Position numbers and translations under genes: made by a program. From Blautia sp. (GTDB lineage Bacteria; Bacillota; Clostridia; Lachnospirales; Lachnospiraceae), in contig JAPFCU010000013.1 in assembly GCA_026169535.1 (NCBI GenBank), forward strand, positions 1 to 64,000: 64,000 nucleotides of DNA, read 5' to 3'. Below, piece by piece: positions 17,737 through 19,555 of the stretch (position 1 is the first letter of the stretch; each line of letters begins with the position of its first letter). The notes beneath the pieces were generated by a model. It had not been told where the DNA came from. It saw nothing but the letters and a program-made list of their open reading frames with translations, and did no database searches.

Positions 17737-18468
17737 ATGAACAGATCAGCAGTAAGTGTTAACCGTTATCCGTTTCAGATGATCCATAGGCTTGTTTTTT
17801 CAAGACCGAAAGAACTTTATTATATCGGTGGAAATGATATTCTTCCGGCGCCGCTGGAACCGCAGAGAGAGACATATGTCATAAGCAGACTGGGAACCGA
17901 TCAGGAAAAGGAAGCAAAAGCACTTTTGATCGAACATAACCTGAGACTGGTAGTGTATATTGCCAAAAAGTTTGATAATACAGGTGTGGGAGTGGAGGAT
18001 CTGATCTCCATTGGAACCATTGGTCTTATTAAAGCAATTAATACCTTCGATCCTGTAAAGAATATTAAGCTGGCCACATACGCATCCCGATGTATTGAAA
18101 ATGAAATCTTAATGTATCTTAGGCGGAACAGTAAGACGAAAATGGAGGTTTCCATTGATGAGCCATTGAATGTAGACTGGGATGGAAATGAACTGCTGCT
18201 GTCTGATATTCTTGGGACGGATGAAGATATTATTTCTCGAAGGCTTGAAGATGAAGTGGAGATCACACTTCTTGGAAAAGCCATCAATAAGCTTACACCC
18301 AGAGAACAGACGATCATCCGCCTCAGATTTGGCCTAAACAGTGCTGAGGGAAAAGAGAAGACCCAGAAGGAAGTGGCTGACCTTCTGGGAATTTCTCAGT
18401 CTTATATCTCAAGACTGGAAAAACGAATCATGAAACGGTTGAAAAAGGAAATTATAAAATATGAATAA
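17737..18468 (+). CDS. sigE: RNA polymerase sporulation sigma factor sigma-E (pro-form)
   Basis: Early mother-cell sigma factor, 243 residues, made as an inactive precursor. An N-terminal pro-region (about residues 1-27, [15 protein letters not shown]...) precedes conserved [17 protein letters not shown]. Region 2 contains [31 protein letters not shown]-like segments, and region 4 has [29 protein letters not shown] is at 17721-17726. Its product should drive the sigma-E-like promoters seen upstream of yabP, the cotS-like gene and cwlD in this window. Confidence 0.97.
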
Positions 18469-18491
18469 ACAGAAGTTCAGAAGTGAACCGC

Positions 18492-18520
18492 GTATTTGCA
18501 GGAAATCAGATACATATACT
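18492..18520 (+). promoter_or_regulatory. Possible sigma-E promoter of cwlD
   Basis: GTATTT (18492-18497), 15-bp spacer, CATATACT (18513-18520), which fits the -10 pattern CATAnnnT. cwlD is a sigma-E/sigma-G gene in Bacillus. The match is weak on the -35 side. Confidence 0.35.
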
Positions 18521-18552
18521 AAAAGGAATAAGAGAAAAGGTGTGTCGGTATC

Positions 18553-19441
18553 TTGAAAAAATATGCGGTGGAGCTGATTATGGCCAGCTTGCTTCTGATC
18601 AGTTTTTTCTTTTTGGCAAGACAGGCGGCTGAAGTTTCCGGAGACATGAAGATTCAGGAAAGAGAGATTATTGCCATTGATCCGGGACATGGTGATATGA
18701 AAATGCGCAGATAAAGAAGGAGATAAGAAAGCGGAGAGTGGAATATGAAAACCATATTCCACTTTTTTGCATGGAAGGCACGGCAGTATAATCTGTGCTG
18801 CCGTGCCCAGTGAGAGCCAAGAGCACTGCATGCATCTGATTTCATTAAAAAGAAAACAGCGCATATGGATTCCAGCCCATGGCGGCGATGATCCGGGAAT
18901 GATAGGCGTGGTAGGTCTGAAAGAGAAAGGGATCAATCTTGAAATTTCTCTTCGGCTGAAGGCGGTTCTGGAAAAAAATGGATTTACAGTAGTAATGACC
19001 CGGGAAAAAGACAAAGGGCTTAATGATGAGAATTCATCTAATAAAAAAGCACAGGATATGCAGAGAAGGATTGCCTTTTTGAATGATAAGAATCCTGTTC
19101 TTACGGTGAGCATCCATCAGAACAGCTATTCAGATCCGGCAGTAAATGGTCCTCAGGTATTTTATTATGAAAATTCTGAGGAGGGAAAAAAGTTTGCTGA
19201 GATCCTTCAGGAAAGCCTGAACCGAACACTTGCTCCAGGGCGTCCAAGAAAGGTGAAGGGAAATACCAGCTACTATCTTCTTAAGAGGAGCAAAGGAACA
19301 CTTGTGATCGTGGAATGTGGATTTCTTACCAATCCTGCAGAGGCAGAGCTTCTTCAGGATGACGGATACCAGCAAAAAATTGCAGAAGCGATAGGTGCAG
19401 GAATCCAGGAATATGTGAAAGAAAAGTACAGAAGCCAGTAA
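18553..19441 (+). pseudogene. cwlD: Interrupted cwlD (spore-cortex N-acetylmuramoyl-L-alanine amidase)
   Basis: Amidase_3 family enzyme that in Bacillus starts muramic-delta-lactam formation in spore cortex. The 5' piece starts at TTG 18553. It encodes a signal-anchor (LLLISFFFLARQ) and IIAIDPGHG, then hits TAA at 18712. The 3' piece resumes at 18878 with HGGDDPGMIGVVGLKEKGINLE and runs to 19441, keeping the remaining catalytic residues (Glu in NLEISL, His in VSIHQNS, Glu in VIVECGFLTNP). Deleting 190 bp between two CATGG copies (18688-18692, 18878-18882) restores IDPGHGGDDPGM in frame, giving 232 residues, close to Bacillus CwlD (237). As written the gene cannot encode a normal enzyme unless the insert is removed. 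Confidence 0.85.
18693..18882. mobile_element. 190-bp hairpin-rich insertion within cwlD, flanked by CATGG repeats
   Basis: The insert carries three successive hairpins. The first, GTGGAATATG/CATATTCCAC (18738-18762), is followed by TTTTTT and looks like an intrinsic terminator. The second, GGCACGGCAG/CTGCCGTGCC (18777-18807), is perfect. The third is CAGTG/CACTG (18808-18828). Short inverted ATGCGC/GCGCAT motifs lie near the ends (18702 and 18860 regions). A 22-codon frame starts at ATG 18744. There is no transposase. It is best described as a MITE-like or structured-RNA element; the family is unknown. Confidence 0.6.
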
Positions 19442-19456
19442 AAAATATAATATTTT

Positions 19457-19486
19457 TTGGCACAGTCAGGGGAACTCTGTTATACT
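19457..19486 (+). promoter_or_regulatory. Promoter for the paired membrane protein genes
   Basis: TTGGCA (19457-19462), 18-bp spacer, TATACT (19481-19486). It is placed 16 bp after the cwlD stop. Confidence 0.6.
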
Positions 19487-19555
19487 ATAGAAGATTACAG
19501 GAAGAAAAATCCGTTCCGTTATACTGGAGCAAAAAGAAAATACAAAGGAGACTAT

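Follow-up and report, generated by a model that had tools for sequence, protein, structure and literature searches.

A 190-bp insert with large serine recombinase half-sites at its ends splits the sporulation gene cwlD of a Blautia genome and is a candidate skin-like mini-element

In a Blautia genome (G000; 2.6 Mb in 85 contigs, 89.75% complete), the spore amidase gene cwlD is split by 190 bp of DNA that ends on both sides in half-sites of a large serine recombinase (LSR). The same codon is cut in a congener and in further Clostridia, and its counterpart is cut in a second amidase gene, ami2. The LSRs linked to these amidase genes form one clade, and both halves of the split cwlD are under purifying selection. 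From these sequence comparisons we consider it fairly probable that the 190 bp are a non-autonomous, skin-like mini-element that would be excised in trans, at sporulation, by the LSR encoded inside ami2. The window, that is, the whole stretch of 64,000 nucleotides analysed, is part of contig C3 of this genome; coordinates refer to it unless a locus is named, and all features described in it lie on the forward strand.

A sequence-only reading of this DNA had proposed that cwlD (18553–19441) is in two parts separated by 190 bp, with CATGG at both junctions, and inspection of the sequence agrees. The 5′ part (18553–18687) comprises 45 codons from a TTG start and ends in ...IIAIDPG, and the 3′ part (18878–19441; 187 codons, HGGDDPGM...SQ) starts at the conserved histidine of HGG and belongs to Amidase_3. 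The repeats, at 18688–18692 and 18878–18882, are spaced by exactly 190 bp, and the insert-free gene has, by arithmetic, the 232 codons (45 + 187) that had been predicted. The entire att-only element spans 18688–18877, bounds that can slide within CATGG. It brings the expected in-frame stop, a TAA at 18712–18714 that closes the 5′ reading frame, and an ORF scan found, as anticipated, no transposase in it, nor any other long ORF of its own. The perfect 10-bp hairpin reported earlier is present at 18777–18807 (GGCACGGCAG/CTGCCGTGCC, arms at 18777–18786 and 18798–18807). Another hairpin had been called terminator-like; it is a perfect 11-bp one (18737–18763, arms at 18737–18747 and 18753–18763) followed by a T run, and the label holds by eye only, because a strict terminator scan reported 0 terminators. 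RNA folding bore out the hairpin-rich character, the stretch 18680–18890 beating 200 of 200 shuffles on both strands (z -4.9 and -4.6).

The interrupted target is a sporulation gene by two matches of its 3′ half. That is, the 3′ part scores 186.5 bits against TIGR02883 (spore_cwlD), whose cut-off of 221.55 is set for the full-length protein and not for a cut gene, and its nearest solved chain is 7rag, a germination-specific amidase. When cwlD was aligned with that of 29 relatives, 26 from the genus and 3 from outside it, the 190 bp corresponded, in 28, to a gap within the conserved D-x-G-H-G-G motif, and their removal restores the frame; the 29th relative, G011, holds different DNA there. A shorter protein initiated at an inner TTG (18767) was considered and provisionally rejected: the ORF exists, without the conserved D-P-G strand or the 5′ hydrophobic stretch. 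The alignment of 7rag to the 3′ part starts only at chain residue 25.

G011, the closest congener by cwlD (78%), has a 99% complete genome in which the gene is cut at the identical base by 1729 bp of insert containing a complete putP gene (its product scores above the TIGR02121 cut-off). The 3′ part of the G011 gene starts at the same CATGG, with the end of the symporter gene and a hairpin upstream, and the 5′ halves of the two species share 83% amino acid identity. An assembly error is ruled out, since this separately assembled congener has the cut at the same nucleotide. The left insert ends, CATGGTGATATGAAAATGCGCAGATAAAG in G000 and CATGGAGGACTGAAAAGGCGCAGAAAAGG in G011, are alike, which suggests, without proving it, that both descend from a single old insertion. 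Across the genus set of 37 genomes, 10 had a weak cwlD match or none; among the 27 loci examined, two are split here (G000 and G011), 24 are intact and one (G035) is intact at this site. The G035 gene (L048) has an apparent frame break a few dozen codons past HGG, unrelated to the insertion site.

Splits at this codon recur outside these two species. A scan of public genome contigs with the cwlD 3′ part gave 64 loci, of which 47 junctions were examined (all but L108 and the 16 from L110 onward); the best-placed relatives bear the labels Blautia or Lachnospiraceae. Seven of the 47 loci are split at this codon, namely L062, which is G011, and six new ones, five of them labelled Lachnospiraceae (L081, L084, L085, L093 and L102) and one Clostridiales (L088). 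In L084, L085 and L093 the cwlD 3′ half has an LSR gene ending at most about 0.1 kb away, and in L088 an apparent LSR gene end is found about 0.7 kb away, with another ORF in between. L081 and L102 have different cargo at the right end of the element, and an LSR (65–66% identity to the query) at a greater distance, on a contig whose equal length led us to take it as the same one. So read, L102 has a complete element of about 18.6 kb, with the cwlD 5′ half adjoining the LSR, and the L081 contig stops short of the 5′ half. In the genomes of L084 and L093 the cwlD 5′ halves are on other contigs and are flanked, on the side of the element, by mobilisation and relaxase genes in one case and ParA/ParB/RepA genes in the other, so these inserts look like mobile elements.

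The second split gene, ami2, encodes a CwlC-like amidase with Amidase_3 and SPOR domains. In an intact relative its SPOR part matches 1x60, 'Sporulation-specific N-acetylmuramoyl-L-alanine amidase' (E 3.7e-10), which we take to be CwlC, an enzyme with a role in mother-cell lysis. In G000 (contig C24) the homologous HGG codon is cut by 1987 bp that hold little besides an LSR gene, and G011 has the same arrangement with a 1937-bp insert. At E<=1e-20, ami2 was found in 26 genomes of the genus and is split in eight of them (G000, G011, G007, G009, G033, G012, G026 and G008). Five of these (G009, G007, G012, G026 and G033; loci L192, L193, L194, L195 and L196) have cargo in common: TrkH, the one name checked against Pfam, and, by eye, small membrane protein, TrkA-like, phosphate-transporter-like and DUF47-like genes. 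No LSR is visible in the G007 element because the contig starts inside it, and the G033 element shows the end of an LSR gene only. The G008 insert (L197:6795–8960) has a chemotaxis receptor gene but lacks an LSR, and the amidase-type LSR of that genome, at another locus (L233), is missing its N-terminal part; dead elements therefore do exist. At the G000 locus (L190:4212–4224) the LSR stop codon overlaps the GTG that opens the 3′ half, and a truncated ami2 amidase might be made there through coupled translation. In G011 (L191, G011:C153:36000–51383) the split ami2 is preceded, at a distance of a few kb upstream, by several LSR genes in tandem.

The ends of the 190-bp insert have the form CA-N14-TGCGC on the left and GCGCA-N14-CA on the right, the spacing implying a dyad GCGCA-N14-CA-N14-TGCGC with CA as its core. 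The left half-site (18690–18708) consists of N14 (18690–18703) and TGCGC (18704–18708), the right one (18859–18877) of GCGCA (18859–18863) and N14 (18864–18877); the CA at 18688–18689 would be the crossover dinucleotide of attL. Judged by sequence alone, the insert is thus bounded by the attL and attR of a serine recombinase. In the window, CAYGG-N12-GCG occurs once, at the left junction (1.44 expected by chance), and CGCA-N14-CAYGG once, at the right junction (0.35 expected). When 26 arms (16 right and 10 left), each read from the element toward the junction, were aligned, C at -18 and C at -16 were found in 26/26 and G at -17 in 25/26, that is, positions -18 to -16 read CGC in 25 arms and CAC in one; A at -15 occurred in 23, and C at -6, -5 and -2 in 23, 25 and 24, respectively. 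A 27th arm, from G461, also fits, so that all 27 located half-sites match the motif (26 CGC, 1 CAC), a count in which not all arms are independent because those of G012/G033 and of L084/L093 are near copies. Intact cwlD or ami2 loci had CGC at the arm position, or GCG on the opposite side, in 0 of 81 cases and the CC of the arm motif in 27 of 81, a control set without L048 and L066 in which the distinct genes number fewer than 81, since it mixes two collections with some genomes in common. The cwlD and ami2 half-sites of G000 have CGC in common and differ at many inner positions. Together, the half-sites provide a naturally occurring set of att sites for a single LSR clade.

These ends, with other evidence, bear on what the insert is. 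The sequence-only reading had offered a MITE as the simplest option, next to a decayed IStron or intron and a developmentally excised element. A search with the 190-bp core found one copy in G000 and nothing similar at E<=1e-5 in 396 other genomes of the family, nor any match among phages or plasmids; the second hairpin had no match in viral contigs. Among 61 genomes a looser search (E<=1) gave short, partial matches, at best 2.2e-4 outside G000, and these were discarded. A single genomic copy, a lack of relatives in those searches and LSR half-site ends do not support a MITE. The IStron or intron option finds no support either, as an Rfam scan of 18400–19500 yielded nothing above the gathering score and, at E<=5, four sub-threshold matches. 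Group I introns are bounded by U...G and group II introns by GUGYG...AY, and the insert bounds, by eye, disagree with both rules. Translational bypass was also rejected: unrelated DNA of at least 1.7 kb fills the same site in other species. Strong hairpins and CATGG repeats resembling a target duplication would speak for one or another of these four identities (MITE, intron, IStron, bypass element), and the solitary copy, the empty Rfam result and the larger unrelated inserts at the same site, from 1.7 kb upward, make the whole group scarcely credible. The developmentally excised element is the best supported of the three options originally listed, with the amendment that its excision, itself a proposal, would be served by an LSR located elsewhere.

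The ami2 LSR qualifies as a large serine recombinase by its Resolvase, Recombinase and Zn ribbon domains, and a YIRLS motif is visible in it, the serine of which is presumably catalytic. For the G000 protein the nearest solved relative is TnpX (2mhc, E 1.5e-27), which likens it to the TnpX-type LSRs of Clostridia. A tree was built from 33 rows, that is, eight amidase-linked LSRs and 25 of 27 other loci (L154 was left out and L144 dropped as short; fragments, LSRs found later and TnpX were likewise absent). The eight form a single clade (100/100; no shuffle out of 500 was as low), which sets the amidase-gene LSRs, seated at the His codon, apart from the genus LSRs with which they were compared, TnpX itself lying outside the tree. 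Within the clade, cwlD-resident and ami2-resident LSRs are separate subclades; each LSR may therefore be locus-specific, and the ami2 LSR may not act on the cwlD ends.

Just upstream of the LSR, an ORF of about 40–70 aa was present in 8 of 8 elements inspected, its similarity being judged by eye; it is a candidate directionality factor, and the copies scanned (three against Pfam, two against PHROGs) had no family match. ATAT-like and CATA-like boxes, sigma-E-box-like by eye, stand ahead of this ORF in the ami2 LSR operons. At 11 loci with viral relatives of the LSR no amidase half was found in the DNA after the LSR gene, with L211 and L215 ending directly behind it. One 116-kb viral contig (L210:2300–2400; IMGVR_UViG_3300037502_002145) has a related LSR directly followed by a dyad GTGCC...CATGG...GGCAC, which looks, by its sequence, like an unintegrated attP.

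The mechanism we favour runs as follows. The codon for the conserved histidine of amidase genes would be the LSR target site, with CA as the crossover dinucleotide, and the 190-bp element would descend from a larger, LSR-carrying element after loss of the recombinase, the slot in G011 now holding putP. Before excision, the insert would hold cwlD off through the frame break and the stop. When spores form, and most likely within the mother cell, the LSR encoded inside ami2 would recombine CA with CA, possibly with the product of the small upstream ORF as its directionality factor, releasing a 190-bp circle and restoring cwlD; ami2 would be restored too. Action in trans has a parallel in Clostridioides difficile, where a plasmid-borne mini-skin with its recombinase gene cut short was excised in cells whose only whole recombinase gene was the chromosomal one, which supports trans excision of the cwlD element (PMC5025042).

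An alternative is that another recombinase, absent from the assembly or of a different family, excises the cwlD elements of G000 and G011. G000 has a single LSR match at E<=1e-10, within its own split ami2, and another LSR could be missing because the genome is only 89.75% complete; G011 has 23 LSR matches, and the subclades may be locus-specific as noted. Against this, the cwlD half-site motif is that of the amidase LSR clade. Furthermore, in the 99% complete G011 the ami2 LSR is the best of the 23, the next by score being 40% identical, and the matches other than the ami2 LSR are at most 40% identical to the query save three short ones (45, 45 and 50%). We regard this alternative as very unlikely.

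Selection on the split gene bears on the choice between excision and decay. Between G000 and G011, pN/pS of cwlD is 0.15 in the 5′ half (47 codons including two at the repeat) and 0.18 in the 3′ half (187 codons); it is 0.30 for the LSR, 0.029 for ami2 and 0.03–0.29 for seven other genes. Among 276 pairs of intact cwlD genes, the 20 with more than 70% identity gave 0.142–0.272. Both halves are thus under ordinary purifying selection although the gene is split in both species. That a split cwlD evolves like an intact gene argues for its restoration, provided that the insertion predates the two species; the argument is weaker if they were invaded separately and recently. With regard to sporulation, spoIVA scores above the cut-off in both G000 and G011, and among 14 controls only Bacillus subtilis matches. 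A pdaA-like gene is found in both as well (285.4 and 284.2 bits, below the cut-off of 298), a match that counts for little because the search is also positive in 10 of the 14 controls. In C. difficile, muramic-delta-lactam requires CwlD and PdaA (PMC6021603).

The 190 bp could instead be a dead relic, the scar of an LSR element without its recombinase, with the G000 cwlD a young pseudogene whose function another amidase covers. The insert does lack a recombinase, the G000 and G011 genomes have no close match to the cwlD-resident LSR query apart from their ami2 LSRs (53–54% identical), and the truncated G008 LSR is an example of such systems decaying. Yet open frames are kept in both halves, with pN/pS as in intact genes, in two species that both have the split; the exact N14 spacing is kept at both half-sites; and spoIVA is still present. 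On balance we find decay unlikely, though not negligibly so. Another reading is a reversible or stochastic switch, in which the LSR would excise and re-insert the element at a low rate in growing cells, as phase variation independent of sporulation. LSRs are capable of integration as well as excision (PMC6957869), the yin element of Clostridium botulinum was found excised at every time point (PMC10747680), and the sporulation role of ami2 is itself deduced. As the 3′ half is a TIGR02883 spore_cwlD, however, vegetative switching would have no plain benefit, and the split spore genes listed in the available text of PMC6957869 are termed mother-cell-specific; we consider such a switch decidedly improbable.

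The excision in trans that we favour would extend a known class of arrangements. In the skin elements of sigK in B. subtilis and C. difficile, with the LSRs SpoIVCA and CD1231, respectively, and the directionality factor CD1234, a sporulation gene is likewise split, an LSR recombines the element ends and excision in the mother cell restores the gene (PMC5025042). Known skins carry their own LSR, whereas the cwlD element has none in its 190 bp, targets an amidase gene, depends on a proposed excision and has its candidate LSR at another locus (G000:C24); it is accordingly not classed as a canonical skin. The gin element in gerE of Bacillus cereus ATCC10987 resembles it as a non-phage element in a spore gene with a serine recombinase, GirC, and att sites made of inverted-repeat arms around a dinucleotide, but encodes three recombinases and GirX, is far larger than 190 bp and sits in another gene at other sites (PMC5595907). 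Intervening elements that restore their sporulation genes on excision also include vfbin in spoVFB (PMC5595907) and SPbeta in spsM, phi3T in kamA and yin in yabG (PMC6957869, PMC10747680); these differ in being prophages or prophage-like, with recombination units of their own. Genes named as split in the accessible literature are sigK, spoVFB (once printed spoIVFB), spoVR, spsM, gerE, kamA and yabG. Neither cwlD nor another amidase gene was named as a target in the text surveyed, which lay outside subscription papers and preprints.

One further step gives about an even chance of being right. It holds that G000 has a two-locus DNA-splicing circuit: a single LSR would act in the terminal mother cell both in cis, on its host gene ami2, and in trans, on cwlD, and so restore the two amidase genes. 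The cwlD element would have been reduced to an att-only 'DNA intron' of 190 bp, retained by the host as an off switch. If so, to our knowledge, no smaller developmentally excised element and no earlier naturally non-autonomous one would be known. In the portions of literature surveyed, few spore genes are described as holding a developmentally excised element, and every such element has a recombination unit of its own. Here a single recombinase clade occupies two paralogous amidase genes at the conserved His codon, and does so in a dozen genomes or more. The elements span about 18.6 kb to 190 bp, and their cargo varies, with putP in one case and TrkH and others elsewhere; sugar ABC genes and surface proteins were seen by eye as further cargo. 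Such a series makes it possible to test by what steps a host might turn a mobile element into a switch of its own, and whether several split genes can share one recombinase. Moreover, gene finders may call cwlD and ami2 broken, and gut bacteria of this kind may be wrongly deemed poor spore formers.
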